Assembly (NCBI GenBank): GCA_021822995.1 | Contig: JAKAPN010000091.1 | Location: 1-5,222, forward strand | Source: an archaeon | Lineage (GTDB): Archaea > Thermoproteota > Nitrososphaeria > Nitrososphaerales > Gagatemarchaeaceae | Direction of reading: 5' to 3' | DNA length: 5,222 bases | Part shown: piece after piece, positions 36 through 5,198 of the stretch | Position numbering within the stretch: position 1 is the stretch's first letter | Layout: each line of letters opens with the position of its first letter | Translations under genes and position numbers: made by a program | Notes under the pieces: model-generated | Database searches by the model: none | Seen by the model: only the letters and a program-made list of their open reading frames with translations | Told to the model about the DNA's origin: nothing

Positions 36-144
36 GCGGGGGTAACGAAGCCTGGTCAACCGTGCGGGACTCAAGATCCGGCCTAGCTTCGGATGGGGCA
101 TCCCGTCCCTTAGGGGTTCGTGGGTTCAAATCCCACCCCCCGCA
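36..144 (+). tRNA. tRNA-Leu(CAA) with a 24-nt intron
   Basis: This gene encodes the leucine tRNA that reads UUG codons. The acceptor stem pairs 36-42 with 137-143 in seven Watson-Crick pairs, with discriminator A144 as expected for leucine. The D stem is ACG 45-47 with CGT 61-63, and the D loop contains GG. The anticodon stem is 65-69 with 101-105. After intron removal the loop reads CTCAAGA, with CAA at 72-74. A long class II variable arm (106-119, CCC/GGG stem) confirms Leu rather than a class I tRNA. The T stem pairs 120-124 with 132-136 around TTCAAAT. CCA is not encoded, so it would be added after transcription. The last 21 bases lie in a direct repeat shared with 1985-2005, which suggests the gene serves as an integration site. 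Confidence 0.96.
76..99 (+). other. tRNA-Leu intron with bulge-helix-bulge splice motif
   Basis: The intron sits between positions 37 and 38 of the tRNA, the commonest archaeal site. A strict bulge-helix-bulge can be drawn. The central 4-bp helix is 70-73 (CTCA) with 94-97 (TGGG, one G-T pair). The 3-nt bulges are 74-76 and 98-100. The outer helix is 77-80 with 90-93, closing a 9-nt loop. Cutting after the second base of each bulge gives exactly 75/76 and 99/100 and restores a normal seven-base anticodon loop. This is the substrate of the archaeal splicing endonuclease. Confidence 0.92.
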
Positions 145-145
145 T
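124..145 (+). repeat. 22-bp direct repeat, copy 1 (tRNA-Leu 3' end, putative att)
   Basis: These 22 bp cover the last T-stem base before the loop, the T loop, the 3' strands of the T and acceptor stems, A144 and one further base. They are identical to 1985-2006, with a copy-to-copy distance of 1861 bp. Tyrosine recombinases often use this part of a tRNA gene as attachment site. Identity stops sharply after base 145 and falls to a diverged similarity. Confidence 0.85.
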
Positions 146-275
146 GTTGATTCCCAGGCTGATTTGGGGGTCTCCAGGGGGAAAGGAGCCAGGAAATCAC
201 CCCGTTTGATTACCCGGTAATCGATGGGGTAGGAGGATTTTCCCTATGGTGGACCCCCTAGAATGTTGGGGATGC
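124..275 (+). repeat. Long repeat copy A: tRNA 3' end plus about 130 bp structured left end
   Basis: Aligns with 1985-2134. After the identical 22 bp the next ~70 bp align with about 2 nt of gaps. The following 58 bp (218-275 against 2077-2134) align without gaps at 46 of 58 positions. Several foldbacks can be drawn. TGATTT 160-165 pairs with AAATCA 194-199, enclosing a bulged inner stem. GATTAC 208-213 pairs with GTAATC 217-222, flanked by ACCCC 199-203 and GGGGT 226-230. CCCC 255-258 pairs with GGGG 268-271 around a 9-nt loop. An AGGAGG at 231-236 lies 9 nt before an ATG at 246, which opens only a 14-residue frame (MVDPLECWGC...). Confidence 0.75.
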
Positions 276-342
276 TCTCTTGGTCTCTGAACTGCTTCTG
301 GAATCCACCTCATCTTCGCAAAATCTAGCCTCCTGGGACCCA

Positions 343-374
343 GAAGTCCCGTTCGTCTTTATGAACGGGATTTC
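343..374. repeat. Near-perfect 14-bp inverted repeat (strong hairpin)
   Basis: GAAGTCCCGTTCGT at 343-356 pairs with the complementary arm 361-374 around the tetraloop CTTT. There are two G-T pairs and no bulges. It lies in the gene-free stretch between repeat A and the 69-residue membrane protein gene. It could end transcripts reading from either side, but neither flank has a convincing T-tract. It could also be a structured RNA, a protein-binding site or a recombination structure. Confidence 0.6.
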
Positions 375-389
375 GATTGATTCATTCCA

Positions 390-403
390 GAATCGTGCGA
401 TTC
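390..403. promoter_or_regulatory. Palindrome GAATCG-TG-CGATTC, possible operator
   Basis: Two 6-bp half sites are perfectly inverted about a 2-bp centre, the form of a site for a small dimeric DNA-binding protein. It starts 16 bp after the 14-bp hairpin. A shorter inverted match, CGAT-CA-ATCG, lies at 455-464. No adjacent start codon or TATA box ties it to a gene, so a regulatory role is only suggested by symmetry. Confidence 0.25.
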
Positions 404-630
404 GCCTTGAAGGAACGGTTTGAACCTGAGCTGAGAGGTAGGAAAGGGACCGTCCGATCAATCGACGCCAGCGCCTCTCCGAAGATAAACAACCTCGCAA
501 AGTTCCTGAAAACCCGCCAGAATGACTAATGGTGCCCTTCACTTGGTCTAGTGCGGCAGTCCCTGGAGAGACCAATCGCGCCCCTCTTATCCGCCTCTGT
601 GGGCCCTACTGGGCAAAATCTTCGGAATCC

Positions 631-840
631 CTAACGCTCTCGTCTCTTCGTGGACGCCACGAGACGCATCAAAGCCGCTGAGACGGCCACAATCCCCGCG
701 ACAAGCGCCAGCGTCGCGCCCTCGTTAGCTGCCGCCTGGGCGCCTGGGTTATCTATGGCGAAGTCGAGTCGCCAAATTACGACACCTATGGCCGTAAACA
801 AGCCTCCGAGAATCACAATGAACGTTCTGTTGTCAGTCAT
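631..840 (-). CDS. Small two-helix membrane protein, 69 aa, unknown function
   Basis: I do not recognise the family. The protein has two hydrophobic segments, about residues 6-24 and 41-60. They are joined by a short polar loop with acidic residues and several alanines. The C-terminus, KRRER, should lie in the cytoplasm by the positive-inside rule, which puts both termini inside. The ATG at 840 is the only good start in frame. A GGAGG (857-861 on the complement) lies 16 nt upstream, longer than usual. A TATA-like box at 891-896 would give a leader of about 25-30 nt. The gene follows the secreted-protein gene 931-1797 on the same strand, separated by 90 bp that contain a hairpin. This suggests separate transcription with partial read-through. 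It is the last gene before the structured left end of the putative cassette. Confidence 0.7.
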   Translation of the reverse strand: MTDNRTFIVILGGLFTAIGVVIWRLDFAIDNPGAQAAANEGATLALVAGIVAVSAALMRLVASTKRRER

Positions 841-890
841 GCATGGTCCCCTAGTTCCTCCGTGGGCGACTGCATGTTGAATCTTGTCGA

Positions 891-896
891 ATAAAA
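891..896 (-). promoter_or_regulatory. TATA-like box for the 69-aa membrane protein gene
   Basis: Read on the minus strand this is TTTTAT, about 50 nt before the ATG at 840. Transcription would start near 867, leaving a short leader that carries GGAGG. The same T-rich stretch follows the hairpin 904-929 and may double as the T-tract of that terminator. Confidence 0.4.
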
Positions 897-903
897 GGGG
901 ATT

Positions 904-929
904 CGGGGAGAGTCGAAGTCGTCTCCCCG
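904..929 (-). terminator. Hairpin terminator after the secreted-protein gene
   Basis: CGGGGAGA 904-911 pairs with TCTCCCCG 922-929, giving eight perfect base pairs around a 10-nt loop. It starts 1 nt past the stop codon of the minus-strand gene at 931. In the direction of transcription it is followed within 7 nt by TTTTATT. Archaeal termination depends mainly on T-tracts, so the short tract makes this a likely partial terminator. Confidence 0.5.
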
Positions 930-930
930 G

Positions 931-1797
931 TCAAGGCGCTGGAAAGCTCCATGAGACGCCAGTGCACTGGCACGCAAAGGCGACCCACGAGTTGTAAGGA
1001 TTGGTGGCGTAGCTGAGTTGCCCGCTAATTGAGTTGAATTGGACCTCAGGGTACATCTCCACAGCCGTCGTGAAAGGGCAGAGTGGAGCTGCTGCCCCCG
1101 CGTCCTGCTGGACGTAGCTGATTGTCACACCAGTCGGACCGACAATCGTTTGGTGGATGCAGACGGCCCAACTGTTCCAAACCCATTGACCAGAGCCGGT
1201 CGGGCCGACCCCGGTGATGTAGTATGGAGAAGTCGATTGGTAGTTGAATGTCCCATAAGCTTCGGTCTCGAATAGTATGCTACCTCCGCCCACCCTGTAA
1301 GTGATGATCTGGTAACCCGAGATTGTTGGGTCATTATAACCGCCAGGGAGTGGAACTTCAATTCCGATCGCGCCGTTCTTGATAGTCCAATTGCCCTGAT
1401 TGATGATGTTCAAGTATCGCCCCACAACATGGGAAGAGGAGAACTTGACGGGCTGATCCGTCTGGCCGTTGAAGAGGTAAGCATTGGTAGAATTGCCATT
1501 CCAAACGACTGAAACGTATCTTTCACCCCACGCTTTTGGCAACTCGTAAGTGGCCAACGTCCCAGGGAACCTACTCAGATTAGCAGTCTGGTATGGAATA
1601 TTGGTTTTGACGAACCATCCAGAGACGTTGACGCCAGGCACGACAGGTTGAGGCCCAGTATAGTTCACTGGTCCGCACTGGCTAGGTGAGCTCGATTCCG
1701 ACGTTGGGGCCGCTGCAAGTCCTACAGATGGAAGGCTCAGAGTTATTGCCAGGAATAGTAGCGTTGGAACTAGGAACAAATTGATTCGTTCGGTCAT
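931..1797 (-). CDS. Secreted, probably N-glycosylated surface protein, 288 aa
   Basis: I do not recognise a family. Residues 1-30 form a Sec-type signal peptide: short charged start MTER, hydrophobic core to about residue 26, then an alanine-rich cleavage region. The mature part is rich in Gly, Ser, Thr, Asn, Tyr and Trp in the alternating manner of beta-sheet extracellular proteins. It has five N-X-S/T sequons (N45, N57, N73, N102, N136) and five cysteines (41, 213, 240, 276, 278), the last two as CQC near the end. No C-terminal membrane anchor is visible, so it is probably released or held by other envelope proteins. The frame continues upstream to 1929. The ATG at 1797 is preferred because it begins the signal peptide and lies about 30 nt after a TATA-like box. 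This is the largest gene of the putative cassette; a role in the cell surface or in contact with other cells or viruses is inference. Confidence 0.8.
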   Translation of the reverse strand: MTERINLFLVPTLLFLAITLSLPSVGLAAAPTSESSSPSQCGPVNYTGPQPVVPGVNVSGWFVKTNIPYQTANLSRFPGTLATYELPKAWGERYVSVVWNGNSTNAYLFNGQTDQPVKFSSSHVVGRYLNIINQGNWTIKNGAIGIEVPLPGGYNDPTISGYQIITYRVGGGSILFETEAYGTFNYQSTSPYYITGVGPTGSGQWVWNSWAVCIHQTIVGPTGVTISYVQQDAGAAAPLCPFTTAVEMYPEVQFNSISGQLSYATNPYNSWVAFACQCTGVSWSFPAP

Positions 1798-1824
1798 TTT
1801 CGCGTAACGACCAGAATTACTTTG

Positions 1825-1830
1825 GTTTAA
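1825..1830 (-). promoter_or_regulatory. TATA-like box for the secreted-protein gene
   Basis: Read on the minus strand this is TTAAAC, centred about 30 nt before the ATG at 1797. Transcription would start about 4-5 nt upstream of the start codon. No Shine-Dalgarno sequence is present in between, so the mRNA is essentially leaderless. Confidence 0.5.
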
Positions 1831-1904
1831 GTCAAGGAGACGCTTCCCAGAATTGAGAATTACATGGACAAAAGTCTGATTAATCATTGGTTGACTGAAA
1901 CCAG

Positions 1905-1922
1905 GGGCGGTATTTCCCGCCC
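1905..1922. repeat. GGGCGG/CCGCCC inverted repeat at the right edge of cassette 1
   Basis: A perfect 6-bp stem, 1905-1910 with 1917-1922, around a 6-nt loop. It lies upstream of the secreted-protein promoter and about 60 bp before the second 22-bp repeat, in otherwise featureless DNA (about 1831-1984). It may mark the element end or simply be a local G+C-rich foldback. Confidence 0.35.
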
Positions 1923-1984
1923 GGGGCAATCAGTCTTCCCGTCGGCAATCCCCATCAATCATGTCCACTGTCGGGGGTCTGCTT

Positions 1985-2006
1985 GTTCAAATCCCACCCC
2001 CCGCAT
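1985..2006 (+). repeat. 22-bp direct repeat, copy 2 (displaced tRNA-Leu 3' end)
   Basis: Identical to 124-145. No tRNA body precedes it. The bases that should form the 5' strand of the T stem (GCTTG at 1981-1985) no longer pair with the 3' strand, and no GCGGGGG acceptor strand is nearby. It is therefore a tRNA fragment and not a second tRNA gene. Weak similarity to the tRNA variable arm continues a few bases upstream (GGGGGTCTG against GGGGTTCGT). Confidence 0.85.
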
Positions 2007-2134
2007 CCTGGTTTCCAGCCCGATTTGGGGTGTTTCGGAGGGAAAAAGCCCAGAAATCACCCCATTGATTACCCGGTTATCGACCGGGTCGGAGGATTTT
2101 GTGTATGGCGGACCCCCTATCTTGTTGGGGGTGC
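1985..2134 (+). repeat. Long repeat copy B: tRNA 3' fragment plus structured left end
   Basis: Diverged copy of 124-275. The foldbacks recur, although not all as the same pairs. GATTT 2022-2026 faces AAATC 2054-2058. ACCCGG 2071-2076 pairs perfectly with CCGGGT 2084-2089. ACCCCC 2112-2117 pairs perfectly with GGGGGT 2127-2132 around a 9-nt loop. GGAGG (2091-2095) again lies 9 nt before an ATG (2105), and the frame begins MADPLSCWGC, matching eight of the first ten codons of copy A at the amino-acid level. The frame then runs open to 2347, but it is antisense to the 2205-2435 gene and loses any protein-like pattern. Confidence 0.75.
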
Positions 2135-2204
2135 GTTCATAGCGGTTCATACGAAATGAGCATGAAGTTGAGACCCGCAAGACGGCCCCAAGGGGAGTTC
2201 CGGT

Positions 2205-2435
2205 TCAGTTCTTCGTTTTTTCTTTCCAGTTTTTCGGAGCATGATACAACTGCGCTAATCGCACAAGAAGGAAAACCGGAACCGTGTCGACGAAAGCCAA
2301 GGGGACGAGAACCAATGACGGTAGCACCGGGCCTACCAAGGCACTGACAATCCAGACTGCCAAGCAGACCATGAAGGTCAATCTCTTGTGCTTCCAGACC
2401 CAAGATGCTCGCAATTCCTCCGATGTCAGTGTCAA
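2205..2435 (-). CDS. Small two-helix membrane protein, 76 aa, unknown function
   Basis: I do not recognise the family. A basic, aromatic N-terminus (WVWKHKR) leads into two hydrophobic segments, about residues 20-36 and 38-60, which form a tight hairpin. A lysine-rich tail follows (KNWKEKTKN), so both ends are probably cytoplasmic. The only candidate starts are a TTG at 2435 and an internal ATG at 2372. The TATA-like box at 2491-2497 points instead to an ATG at 2470 in another frame. That frame encodes 12 residues and ends in TGA at 2432-2434, overlapping the TTG start as TTGA. Either a short leader peptide is coupled to this gene, or a frameshift has split one longer N-terminus. It lies 53 bp after the 2489-2782 gene on the same strand, close to repeat copy B, a position equivalent to that of the 69-aa protein beside copy A. 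Confidence 0.6.
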   Translation of the reverse strand: MTLTSEELRASWVWKHKRLTFMVCLAVWIVSALVGPVLPSLVLVPLAFVDTVPVFLLVRLAQLYHAPKNWKEKTKN

Positions 2436-2470
2436 GCTCTGTCTACTCTTCCCTTGTTTGAAAGTGGCAT
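2432..2470 (-). CDS. 12-codon leader peptide or frameshifted start of the next gene
   Basis: ATG at 2470 lies about 24 nt after the centre of the TATA-like box, the right distance for a leaderless start. It opens MPLSNKGRVDRA and stops at 2432-2434. The stop overlaps the TTG start of the 76-aa membrane protein. It may be a real coupled mini-frame, or the true N-terminus of the membrane protein broken by a one-base change. It is too short to be called with confidence. Confidence 0.3.
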   Translation of the reverse strand: MPLSNKGRVDRA

Positions 2471-2488
2471 TTGATTTCTACTCCGGGC

Positions 2489-2782
2489 CTAGATATGCTT
2501 GCTGCGTCTCCGAATTGACCGAGTCGAGGCAATTTTTCCCAATGGTGGACCCCCTAGAAAATAGATTCGCCAAGACCTGTCTTCGGTTCCAAGTTCTTGT
2601 GGAGGTAAATTGAGTCGGTGAAAAAATAAGGTCAGGGCACCCTGGGGAGAGTGTCCCGCCACCCTTGCGGCCTTGCGTTTTCGATAGAGTCTCTCCAGTA
2701 GGTAGCCGACCGTGAATAGCACGACCAGCTCGCCCGCCAAATAGACTAAGTTGGGAATGTTTAGGACGAACAGTTCGCTCAT
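2489..2782 (-). CDS. Single-pass membrane protein with basic cytoplasmic tail, 97 aa
   Basis: I do not recognise the family. One hydrophobic segment (about residues 10-29) is followed directly by RLYRKRKAAR, so the N-terminus should be outside and the tail in the cytoplasm. The frame can be opened from a GTG at 2803. The ATG at 2782 is preferred because a TATA-like box lies about 30 nt upstream, giving a nearly leaderless start. Residues from about 75 onward (FLGGPPLGKIASTRS) are the reverse reading of repeat copy C. The C-terminus may therefore have been replaced when the repeat arrived, and the original protein may have been longer or different. It follows the 2834-3454 gene by 51 bp and precedes the 76-aa membrane protein gene on the same strand. 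Confidence 0.55.
   Translation of the reverse strand: MSELFVLNIPNLVYLAGELVVLFTVGYLLERLYRKRKAARVAGHSPQGALTLFFHRLNLPPQELGTEDRSWRIYFLGGPPLGKIASTRSIRRRSKHI
2491..2497 (-). promoter_or_regulatory. TATA-like box for the 76-aa membrane protein transcript
   Basis: Read on the minus strand this is CATATCT. It overlaps the stop codon of the upstream gene (2489-2491), and its centre is about 24 nt before the ATG at 2470. Confidence 0.35.
2510..2562 (+). repeat. Truncated third copy (C) of the element-end repeat
   Basis: Positions 2534-2559 match 238-263 of copy A at 25 of 26 bases, including the ATGGTGGACCCCCTAGAA core. The bases just upstream (GACCGAGTCGAGG) resemble copy B (GACCGGGTCGGAGG). The tRNA fragment and the first half of the repeat are absent. 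It is in the same orientation as copies A and B and lies inside the 3' end of the minus-strand gene 2489-2782. Confidence 0.65.
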
Positions 2783-2809
2783 GGTTGTTACGTAAGACTG
2801 CACGCTGCG

Positions 2810-2815
2810 CTATAT
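2810..2815 (-). promoter_or_regulatory. TATA-like box for the single-pass membrane protein gene
   Basis: Read on the minus strand this is CATATAG (about 2809-2815), centred about 30 nt before the ATG at 2782, so transcription would start 3-4 nt upstream of it. This is the main reason for preferring 2782 over the GTG at 2803, which would leave only about 9 nt between box centre and start. Confidence 0.45.
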
Positions 2816-2833
2816 GTTGTTAGGAGTCTCGCT

Positions 2834-3454
2834 TTAACTGGATGTAGAATTGCCGAGGTAGACTAGATTGAATGTGGTTTGTCCCTTGTATGTGTTTCCC
2901 ACAAAGGGAATGCCGGAAGCTGATGTGAGAACCAGCTGAACCAGAACAACGGTGCTTCCTATGCCTGCTGGGAGTTCGGCGTTCTTGTAGGCCAAGCCAA
3001 TGCCGTAAAGAGTAGTGGGGTTTTGCGAAGGGAACCCGGACAAGGTCACGACCGCGCCAGAAGCGCCTGTCGGTCCACCGCTGTAATTTTCGTTTTCAAA
3101 GTCAAGAGGAACGTGACCGGCAGAGTCGTAATTGAACCCGGTCACCCATACATCGGCAGGGTAGGGCCCAATGCCGAAAGTGAGGTTGACCAGTTTGATG
3201 TTGAGCCCTTGGGCATGCCAGAGCTGTAAGCCGAAGCTGACTGCGCCTGTGGTGTTTCCCTCGAATGTTGCTGATGTGATGTTGATCTCGGCCAGTGTTT
3301 CGCCTGACGATCCAAGGGAGAGAACATTCCATTTAGCGGCCGGTGTCGGAGAGAGTTTGTACTGGCGCTGGTATACCTGCAGGCCCGAGACGTAGAGTAC
3401 ACTAACCGCGATTATCGCCATGGCGATGACCGCGTAGACCTCGTTCCTTTGCAC
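2834..3454 (-). CDS. Signal-anchored, probably N-glycosylated surface protein, 206 aa
   Basis: I do not recognise a specific family. The N-terminus is short and polar (MQRNE), followed by one hydrophobic segment (about residues 6-25) and then QVYQRQYK, typical of a signal anchor with the rest outside. The remaining ~175 residues are beta-rich, free of cysteine, and carry five sequons (N58, N67, N90, N123, N202). The layout recalls archaeal pilin-like proteins, but the usual Gly or Ala cleavage residue before the helix and the Glu inside it are not in the right place. I therefore do not call it a type IV pilin. The start is a GTG at 3454, supported by a TATA-like box at about 3478-3483, the distance expected for a leaderless mRNA. 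It heads a minus-strand series of three envelope genes that ends at repeat copy B. Confidence 0.75.
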   Translation of the reverse strand: MQRNEVYAVIAMAIIAVSVLYVSGLQVYQRQYKLSPTPAAKWNVLSLGSSGETLAEINITSATFEGNTTGAVSFGLQLWHAQGLNIKLVNLTFGIGPYPADVWVTGFNYDSAGHVPLDFENENYSGGPTGASGAVVTLSGFPSQNPTTLYGIGLAYKNAELPAGIGSTVVLVQLVLTSASGIPFVGNTYKGQTTFNLVYLGNSTSS

Positions 3455-3477
3455 GTTAGAGAATCCAGGGCTTGGTA

Positions 3478-3483
3478 GATATA
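3478..3483 (-). promoter_or_regulatory. TATA-like box for the 206-aa surface protein gene
   Basis: Read on the minus strand this is GTATATC (3477-3483 region), centred about 26 nt before the GTG at 3454. The predicted transcript begins at the start codon. This spacing supports the unusual GTG start. Confidence 0.55.
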
Positions 3484-3762
3484 CGTCTATGAACTAGAAC
3501 GGCCTAACACTCTGTCAGGGGCAGCCAGCGTCCAGCAAACAGGTCCAACATCCGAGGAAGATGCGTTCGACTTCCAGCCCCACAACTGTTCGCTTGTCTC
3601 GTGGAAGCTGTTTCGCCTTCAAACGTGCCGTCCTGAGCTTGGAGACTGGTGCTTGCAGCGGACCCCTGTTTGTTAGAGGCACGTTCGGATGAGAGTCGGC
3701 TTAATCCGGACTTTCGTCAGGCCAGGGTCGATGCTGCTAACCCCGTACGCGTCAGCCTCGCC

Positions 3763-3768
3763 TTTAGA
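3763..3768 (+). promoter_or_regulatory. TATA-like box for the radical SAM gene
   Basis: TTTAGA lies about 28 nt before the ATG at 3794, so transcription would start 1-3 nt before the start codon. This favours the first ATG over later ones. Confidence 0.45.
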
Positions 3769-3793
3769 AGGGCGGCCAGGGTAGGTAGCATAG

Positions 3794-4948
3794 ATGGAAT
3801 CTGACGGCGTGCGGCTGCCGGGTCCTCACGAAGCTGGCCGAACCTTCAGTGACAGGCCCGTCCTGGTGTTTTGGGAGATGACTCGGGCGTGCCCCCTCAG
3901 TTGCATCCATTGCAGGGCGTCCGCCATCAGCGACCCCCTACCGGGAGAGCTTACCACGGATGAAGGCCACCGGTTGATCGACGAAGTCGTGAGGTTCGGG
4001 AAGCCGTACCCCACCGTCATCTTTACTGGAGGAGACCCTCTCAAGAGGGAGGACCTCTTCGACATCCTGCGCTATGCTTCGGCCCGGGGAGTGGGATCCG
4101 CAGCGTCACCTGCCGTGTCGGACGCGCTGACCACAGACGCGCTCGGACGTCTGAAGGCGTCCGGGACAGCTTCAATCTCGATCAGCCTCGATGGCGCCGG
4201 CGCCTTGACACACGACGCGATCAGGAGGAAGGCCGGCACGTTCGAGAAGACGCTTTGGTCCATCCAGAAGGCTGTTGAGATAGGCCTGCACGTCCAGGTC
4301 AACACTGTGGTGATGGAAAAGAACGTCAGGGAGCTTCCGGCAATATTCCACCTCATCAAGGGGCTCGGGGCGAAGACGTGGGAGGTGTTCTTCCTCGTGA
4401 AGGTGGGGAGAGGAAGCGGAGTCGAGGACCTCCGTCCTGAAGAGTATGAGGACGCGTGCAACTTCCTATACGACGCTTCGAAGTATGGGATCACAATCAG
4501 GACGGTGGAGGCTCCGTTCATCAGAAGGGTTGCGGCGGAGAGGGCGCGCGGAGGTGCGAAATGGGGGGGCGAAGGGTACCTTCGGATGTCGTCGGAACTC
4601 GTCTCGTTCGAAGGGAGCCCAACCGCCAGCACATCGAGCATCAGGCCTCGTGGGACGCTGGATGGTGACGGGATCATCTTCGTCTCCTATGACGGCGTGA
4701 TTCACCCTGGCGGCTTGCTTCCGACCAAGTTGGGAGAGGTAAGGACCGACGGCCTCGTCAACGTGTACAGGGAGCACGAACTGTTGAAGCGGATACGAGA
4801 CAGAGATTTTCGTGGCAGCTGTGGGACGTGTGGGTATCGTTCAATCTGCGGGGGGAGCAGGGCGAGGGCCAACGCGTACAGCGGAGACCCATTGGAGACA
4901 GATCCCGCGTGTTTGCTGGCGGCACGCCTCATGAAGCCCGCCAGCTAG
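3794..4948 (+). CDS. Radical SAM/SPASM protein, TIGR04053-like, 384 aa
   Basis: This is a radical SAM enzyme with a C-terminal SPASM domain. The family cluster CxxxCxxC is C33, C37 and C40 in WEMTRACPLSCIHC and would bind the [4Fe-4S] cluster that cleaves S-adenosylmethionine. TGGDPL at 78-83 is the usual GGE-type SAM-binding motif, and SISLDG lies further on in the barrel. The SPASM part has C343, C346, C352 and C373 within CGTCGYRSICGGSRARA and the following GD...DPAC, for auxiliary Fe-S clusters. The fixed wording of these motifs (FWEMTRAC, TGGDPLKR, CGGSRARA) and the full length match my memory of TIGR04053, a group related to the haem-pathway enzymes AhbD/NirJ and to peptide-modifying SPASM enzymes. 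Its substrate is not established, and no partner peptide or haem gene is next to it. Codons favour G or C in third position more than in the cassette genes. It probably belongs to the stable chromosome. Confidence 0.93.
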   Translation: MESDGVRLPGPHEAGRTFSDRPVLVFWEMTRACPLSCIHCRASAISDPLPGELTTDEGHRLIDEVVRFGKPYPTVIFTGGDPLKREDLFDILRYASARGVGSAASPAVSDALTTDALGRLKASGTASISISLDGAGALTHDAIRRKAGTFEKTLWSIQKAVEIGLHVQVNTVVMEKNVRELPAIFHLIKGLGAKTWEVFFLVKVGRGSGVEDLRPEEYEDACNFLYDASKYGITIRTVEAPFIRRVAAERARGGAKWGGEGYLRMSSELVSFEGSPTASTSSIRPRGTLDGDGIIFVSYDGVIHPGGLLPTKLGEVRTDGLVNVYREHELLKRIRDRDFRGSCGTCGYRSICGGSRARANAYSGDPLETDPACLLAARLMKPAS

Positions 4949-5047
4949 AAGCGCATACGCAACGTGGGCTCGAGGAGCGAGGCGGCTGCACCTCCTTCTT
5001 GGGCGAGAACCGCGCAGCGCGCGTTGGTGTACCAGCTAAAATCGTTG

Positions 5048-5056
5048 TATTATATA
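5048..5056 (+). promoter_or_regulatory. Strong TATA box for the zinc-finger gene
   Basis: TATTATATA is the best TATA match in the window. Its centre is about 26 nt before the ATG at 5079, so the transcript should be leaderless. Confidence 0.65.
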
Positions 5057-5078
5057 CGGGAGAAACCCGCATCGAGAC

Positions 5079-5198
5079 ATGAAACTATGGGGAAAGAAGG
5101 AATATGCCTGCGCGACGTGCGGGGCGAAGTTCGACGCCCAAGCCAAGCTCGACGAGCACGGCAAGGCGCATGTGGCCCCGGAGACGGTAACCAAGTAG
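5079..5198 (+). CDS. Mini C2H2 zinc-finger protein, 39 aa
   Basis: A complete 39-residue frame made almost entirely of one classical zinc finger. The pattern is Y9-x-C11-x2-C14-x3-F18-x5-L24-x2-H27-x3-H31, which matches the consensus at every defining position, including the two hydrophobic core residues. Zinc would be held by C11, C14, H27 and H31. The N-terminus (MKLWGKK) is basic and the tail is a short polar extension. Single-finger proteins of this size are common in archaea, and most have no known target; DNA, RNA or protein binding are all possible. A strong TATA box at the exact leaderless distance supports the start. It lies 130 bp after the radical SAM gene on the same strand but has its own promoter. 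That spacer has no clear terminator. Confidence 0.85.
   Translation: MKLWGKKEYACATCGAKFDAQAKLDEHGKAHVAPETVTK

Follow-up and report, generated by a model that had tools for sequence, protein, structure and literature searches.

In Dehalococcoides, tandem islands at the ssrA gene are bounded by repeats of about 20 bp from its 3'-end, each preceded by a 15-bp motif that is absent from the gene; insertion is placed in the T-loop, and 15 of the 31 islands lack an integration module (PMC3146451, available portion). In Methylophilaceae, the last 20 nucleotides of tRNA-Lys are repeated, in varying number, at additive flexible islands of 330 bp to 42 kb (PMC10872708, available portion). Here we describe a locus in an archaeon of the Gagatemarchaeaceae, contained in a stretch of 5,222 nucleotides (contig JAKAPN010000091.1 of assembly GCA_021822995.1; "the window"), which is contig C62 of a genome of 305 contigs and 70% completeness (G000). 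Behind a tRNA-Leu(CAA) gene stand two cassettes with similar left ends. We think it probable that they were inserted in tandem at the tip of the tRNA gene, one after the other, by a site-specific (probably tyrosine) recombinase that would have acted in trans and was found in neither cassette. Below, the repeated tRNA tip is called the core, the sequence behind it the left end (L), and a 42-bp motif directly before the second core the right end (R).

As in Dehalococcoides, judging from the accessible part of that report, a repeated RNA-gene tip bounds the islands (124-145 is identical to 1985-2006) and a motif absent from the RNA gene precedes the distal repeats (here R, which has 17 clear copies spread over 5 of the 31 genomes examined in the genus). 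The locus is variable within a conserved gene frame, here in nine genomes, as is typical of tandem tRNA and tmRNA islands. Some members of that type carry an integration module; integrase-type open reading frames (ORFs) lie behind the tRNA in two relatives, G023 and G043, but in elements with other right ends. Dehalococcoides differs in being a bacterium with tmRNA as the target, serine recombinases and generally larger, rdhA-rich islands (same portion), whereas here the target is an archaeal tRNA-Leu, the cassettes are short and a recombinase was not seen. The Methylophilaceae islands share the repeated tRNA tips but are bacterial, and the portion of PMC10872708 available mentions no conserved right-end motif. 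Insertion by a recombinase from elsewhere would make the two cassettes the archaeal equivalent of bacterial islands stacked at tRNA-type genes.

Cis-mobilizable elements are bounded by attachment (att) sites, have no recombination genes and are moved together with a neighbor by accretion (PMC3146451, available portion). Cassette 1 resembles them in having att-type cores on both sides and no recombinase among the families shown for 28 ORFs of the arrays; unlike in those elements, an autonomous neighbor with the same ends was not found. In Archaea, integrons and clusters of attC sites lacking integron-integrases (CALINs) are rows of small cassettes that all close with a common site, and the integrase is often missing (PMC9668308, in part). 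In contrast to their attI anchor and folded attC sites, as that part describes them, the tRNA tip is the anchor here. A reading of R-core as a folded attC-like site is not supported: with z of -0.9 on one strand and -1.2 on the other, the R-core of the window folds no better than shuffled sequences, in a comparison made without an attC model. As to an IntI integrase, no recombinase is among the families shown for the 28 array ORFs, in a search that did not include the IntI-specific domain. A tycheposon, a tRNA-anchored element with its own tyrosine recombinase according to the available text of PMC10872708, does not fit either, with no such enzyme in the six main ORFs of the window or among the families shown for the 28 array ORFs.

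For elements of Thaumarchaeota and archaeal tyrosine recombinases, the 3' regions of tRNA genes, including intron-bearing ones, are known targets, and tandem insertion in archaea is already known (PMC6563490, PMC8371274, both in part). The Thaumarchaeota elements described there are larger, and these parts mention no array of short cassettes with shared ends. We found no published description of such an array in the largely open literature on tRNA-anchored, cis-mobilizable, Nitrososphaerales and archaeal-integron elements. New here is an archaeal short-cassette array in which one common right end is combined with several left ends and a recombinase was not seen. It pinpoints where an uncultured genus of archaea acquires and sheds short sets of genes, and its element ends, known in detail, permit a direct search for circles, empty sites and helper enzymes. 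If the recombinase does act in trans, this would be archaeal tRNA-based cassette capture, alongside integrons and the tandem tmRNA islands of bacteria. We also entertain, as a possibility rather than a probability, a wider integron-like (not integron) archaeal system, in which short cassettes with one dedicated end and varied left ends and cargo, some maybe with whole amino-acid biosynthesis operons, are stacked one-way at tRNA-Leu(CAA) and moved by a recombinase not their own.

Two cassettes in tandem at the tip of tRNA-Leu(CAA)

The anchor of the array is an intron-bearing tRNA-Leu(CAA) gene at 36-144 on the forward strand (Rfam RF00005, 42.7 bits, E 8.3e-7; anticodon and intron read from the sequence), although ARAGORN reported no tRNA in the window. 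The tip of this gene, from the T-arm to the 3'-end, forms core copy 1 (124-145, forward strand) and recurs as core copy 2 at 1985-2006 (forward strand), which ends cassette 1 and starts cassette 2. Both ends of cassette 1 are therefore bounded by the tRNA-tip core, with a core-to-core spacing of 1861 bp. Each copy is followed by a left end on the forward strand, L1 at 146-275 and L2 at 2007-2134. The two are 77.1% identical; without gaps, they align in two pieces at 73% and 81%, and BLAST finds the second copy at E 4.7e-32. L1 is 73.3% identical to G016 and 71.8% to G013; L2 is 79.2% identical to the G016 copy behind the second core of that genome and 74.6% to G013. The original prediction had named an exact repeat of the last 22 bp of the tRNA at 1985-2006, a diverged recurrence of about 130 bp behind it and a first element of about 1.86 kb, and all three were confirmed by the repeat comparison, the left-end alignment and the core spacing, respectively.

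Both cassettes start with a copy of the tRNA tip and then L, and cassette 1 closes with R and the second tip. R1, at 1943-1984 on the forward strand, has no mismatch to the R pattern, as is also the case in G016, G017 and G041; G045 has one mismatch. R has no counterpart in the tRNA gene. In four related genomes, this R also stands at the end of stretches that differ in left end and cargo.

At the far side of cassette 2, the segment 3528-3585 is the best forward-strand match to R-core within 2140-5079 (19 mismatches). None of 3000 shuffled sequences had fewer than 21 mismatches, and the lowest count among 53 overlapping chromosomal windows was 23. We take this segment, from its sequence, as a decayed right end and core of cassette 2, which would then be about 1580 bp long. 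As its right end is decayed, cassette 2 is taken as the older of the two. Behind the tRNA, the window contains cassette 1, cassette 2 and a radical-SAM gene, with the conserved gene frame resuming near 5079.

A free circle carrying R-core-L as its attachment site would account for this arrangement. If crossover took place within GTTCRAAT, a T-loop segment of the tRNA gene, the circle would be integrated without loss of the intact tRNA and R-core would come to lie at the distal side; a second insertion would push the older cassette outward. We consider a tyrosine recombinase the likeliest agent, because a tRNA tip serves as the core, the stretch of the junction that is conserved best has its end in the T-loop, and ORFs similar to PF00589 lie behind the tRNA in G023 and G043.

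One right end in several genomes

With up to three mismatches, R together with the core occurs at 7 sites in 4 of the 31 genomes of the genus, and R alone at 17 sites in 5 of them (2 in G000, 1 in G016, 5 in G017, 8 in G041 and 1 in G045). The reversed R pattern, used as a control, has no site in the same genomes. Five weaker sites in fetched loci raise the total to 22 (G017 to 7, G045 to 4). In the scan of 22 oriented loci with R-core, the reversed sequence gave no match and the tRNA gene itself scored 9-11 mismatches. Contigs that bear the tRNA hold 10 of the 22 R sites (1 in G000, 1 in G016, 4 on G041 contig C73 and 4 in G045), and all ten are in the orientation of the tRNA. Among 400 genomes of the order (66 genera), R-core with up to three mismatches was found in four, all of this genus.

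Over the 22 sites, the information content is 39.6 bits for R (42 positions) and 25.5 bits for the core (21 positions). By reading of the alignment, the right half of the core is kept in 15 of the 22 sites (up to three differences or one single-base indel), and in the other 7, R and GTTCG are kept and divergence follows. A crossover in the T-loop would allow this loss of likeness after GTTCG.

Elsewhere, R-bounded stretches encode PIN, alpha/beta-hydrolase, methyltransferase, metallo-beta-lactamase-superfamily, M29-type and zinc-ribbon proteins. Inter-R stretches are about 0.75 to 2.8 kb long on G017 contig C30, and short ones occur in several genomes. One cassette with a PIN gene is shared almost from end to end by G041 and G017, with 726 of 754 positions aligned.

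Other features of R sites were noted in passing. The second R-core of G000 lies on contig C150 behind an apparent PIN-type toxin pair (locus L112, 1-720). Some R motifs come in pairs with a spacing of about 30 bp (reverse complement of L133, ~2802-2858, and of L088, ~2985-3040), with GTAGGCATACAAC preceding the second; such doublets could be extra binding sites for a recombinase. In G041, R-core with a left end of the type found in that genome stands directly before operons that resemble, by eye, those of the trp/aro and threonine/aspartate pathways (reverse complement of L132 from ~2296, L133 from ~2832), and on G041 contig C70 more R sites follow about 18 kb farther on. The biosynthesis operons could be cassette cargo or could merely adjoin the arrays.

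Several left ends behind the cores

The left end of the window type was found in 3 of 41 genomes (E < 1e-27; G000, G013 and G016), always behind this tRNA tip or a copy of the core. The first stretch of G016 begins with another left end, and in that genome the window type follows the second core. In G041, diverged L-type sequence stands behind five sites on three contigs (at one of them over 30-37 bp only), with copies behind R-core sites far from the tRNA. Alignment of window-type with G041-type left ends beats shuffled sequences in 6 of 6 pairs (z 2.6 to 7.3), with the score of one pair reached by 3 of 300 shuffles. Identity is only 40-46%, and a common origin of the two types is therefore likely rather than established.

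We compared the 150 bp behind 42 hand-picked cores or core-like sites (E <= 0.01). Five groups emerged: the window type (twice in the window, G013, G016); the G041 type, at its five sites; a type common to G000 contig C150, G017 and G023; the type of the PIN cassette, common to G041 and G045; and a 20-bp match between G003 and G043. No left-end match was found at this threshold for the remaining sites among the 42. R is thus combined with several types of left end. We also noticed by eye that the type of G023, G000 contig C150 and G017 holds a stretch resembling the T-arm and 3'-end of a different tRNA (L085 ~16460-16590, L112 ~720-840, L114 ~915-985).

Two simpler views of the left end were rejected. 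It is not a normal 3' flank of the tRNA, as other relatives carry different sequence behind the same gene. An inherited chromosomal flank was rejected mainly on account of the L-type sequence behind the five G041 sites. Between G013 and G016, left ends are 76.7% alike, against 90.5% for the PhoU-like gene and 97.5% for the tRNA region, but this divergence alone is not decisive, because one intergenic stretch of the pair is 82.6% alike and the stretch behind a 97-aa gene 68.1%. The distribution of L behind tips and cores, in three genomes and in diverged form at the G041 sites, supports the earlier proposal of two related elements that inserted successively, each bringing a similar left end.

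A variable island in a conserved frame

On the upstream side of the tRNA, the frame, labeled from sequence, has a PhoU-like gene; on the downstream side it has isocitrate-lyase-like, CNNM-like, kinase and eRF1 genes. PhoU-like relatives of at least 50% identity are present in 20 of the 31 genomes (one match is partial), and the frame was found on both sides of the tRNA in nine (G000, G002, G003, G005, G010, G011, G013, G016 and G043), with the PhoU-like gene 3.4 kb before the tRNA in G003. In G000, the frame lies on contigs C39 and C22, each of which overlaps the window by exactly 127 bases. The distance from the tRNA tip to the isocitrate-lyase-like match is about 0.65 kb in G013, 3.0 kb in G003, 3.6 kb in G005, 3.7 kb in G011, 3.95 kb in G016, 4.25 kb in G010 and 5.05 kb in the window; to the CNNM-like gene it is 3.5 kb in G002 and 7.1 kb in G043. 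In G023, a zinc finger of the frame type stands about 16 kb from the tRNA. The fetched stretches of G009, G012, G020, G041 and G045 stop short of the frame.

A comparison of this locus among relatives, suggested beforehand as a check, thus finds a variable island of 0.65-7 kb directly behind the tRNA and between conserved genes in nine genomes, and one of about 16 kb in a tenth. Further copies of the core are present in G016, G023, G041 and G045. Among the 20 genomes that match the tRNA (19 long matches and a shorter one beside the PhoU-like gene in G004), seven have a contig edge in the tRNA or within about 12 bp of it (G000, G007, G008, G017, one of two contigs of G041, G044 and G045), with the G044 and G008 contigs stopping at its last base. 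Such edges suggest, if indirectly, that several versions of the locus exist in populations.

Search for a recombinase

Among 28 hand-picked ORFs in or beside the arrays, no recombinase was found in the families shown (25 of 36 matched families for Pfam, 9 of 9 for PHROGs), and no R-ended stretch had a recombinase among the ORFs examined. PF00589 has no match at E <= 1e-3 in G016 (100% complete) or G017 (97%), both of which have R sites; serine recombinases were not searched genome-wide. ORFs similar to PF00589 lie directly behind the same tRNA in G023 (399 aa, above the Pfam cut-off) and G043 (372 aa, below it). The G023 element, 10.7 kb long (L085 1173-11911), starts directly behind the tRNA, is closed by an exact 25-bp copy of the tip and encodes a TIR-like protein (below cut-off) besides the integrase-type ORF.

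The original prediction held that the first element lacks a recombinase and was moved by an enzyme supplied elsewhere. Its first part agrees with the absence of a recombinase among the families shown for the array ORFs; for the second no helper was identified, and we infer the movement in trans, like the crossover in the T-loop.

Alternative explanations

The cassettes might be remnants of larger elements that once encoded an integrase, entered the site in tandem and later shed the integrase gene, with nothing moving in trans. The integrase-type ORFs of G023 and G043 and the decayed R-core at 3528-3585 would suit such a history, and archaeal elements are known to lose their integrase after insertion (PMC8371274, available portion). 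Ragged lengths would then be expected, but several genomes have short inter-R stretches and the PIN cassette is kept at nearly full length in G041 and G017; moreover, no recombinase was seen in the examined ORFs of R-ended stretches. We regard this account as unlikely. Much less plausible still is a plain segmental duplication, in which the tRNA tip was copied along with its flank and other DNA later entered between the copies, without a site-specific recombinase. It has the merit that a single step yields the 22 bp together with the 130 bp, but leaves unexplained why the same R precedes the second core here and in G016, G017 and G041, and why five left ends stand behind different sites in G041. 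We likewise give very little credence to the view that the left end, instead of bounding an element, serves the tRNA as a functional 3' element such as a terminator, a processing signal or an RNA gene. L2 does fold better than 198 of 200 shuffled sequences (z -2.9), and 6 of 20 predicted pairs in the aligned left ends are changed on both sides; however, folding of L1 is unremarkable (z -1.6), 146-275 has no Rfam match, the same tRNA is followed by other sequence in other relatives, and copies in G041 lie behind R-core sites far from the tRNA.

Several observations weigh against successive insertion in trans, which we nevertheless prefer. No circle and no pair of empty and filled sites within one species was seen, and the exact R-core pattern was absent from the viral contigs searched. 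On the contigs of 12 of the 22 R sites, no tRNA-Leu was seen (4 sites on G041 C70; 5 on G017 C30 and 1 each on C9 and C14; 1 on G000 C150). The right halves of two G017 sites correspond to no tRNA tip of the genus, and an assignment to other tRNA tips was dropped, each pattern occurring in 1 of the 31 genomes and only at the site itself. Two weak G045 sites are doubtful, because their 11 mismatches are within the range of the tRNA gene itself. Between G041 and G017, the PIN cassette shows 82.0% identity and the PhoU-like gene 81.5%, and a recent transfer of the cassette is therefore not established. A helper candidate on G000 contig C3 has relatives in 6 other genomes, but none at E <= 1e-3 in G016, G017 or G045. 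The integrase-bearing elements behind the tRNA in G023 and G043 differ from the R cassettes in their right ends, and G016 and G017 have no PF00589 match at E <= 1e-3.

Cargo and neighboring genes

The cargo of cassette 1 consists of two ORFs on the reverse strand, a 69-aa membrane-type ORF (631-840) and a 288-aa secreted-type ORF (931-1797; the near-identical frame 931-1800 has no Pfam match). The latter has two matches among 5.8 billion proteins, a 160-aa piece that is 99% identical and another protein with 59% identity over 285 aa. Cassette 2 contains, also on the reverse strand, a 76-aa membrane-type ORF (2205-2435) and a 206-aa ORF (2834-3454) with a pilin-like N-terminus by eye. Pfam gave no match for five cargo ORFs of the two cassettes, these four among them. 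A third, 26-bp copy of the left-end tail lies inside cassette 2 (2534-2559, forward strand; 96% identical to 238-263).

Behind the cassettes, on the forward strand, follows the radical-SAM gene (3794-4948; PF04055, E 7.2e-19), which may be cargo of a cassette or of an older island. It has relatives of 45-67% identity in 11 other genomes, none of them on the 24 stretches compared around these loci. The first frame gene behind the island encodes a 39-aa protein of zinc-finger type (5079-5198, forward strand) and also occurs next to the isocitrate-lyase-like gene of G016 and on G000 contig C22.

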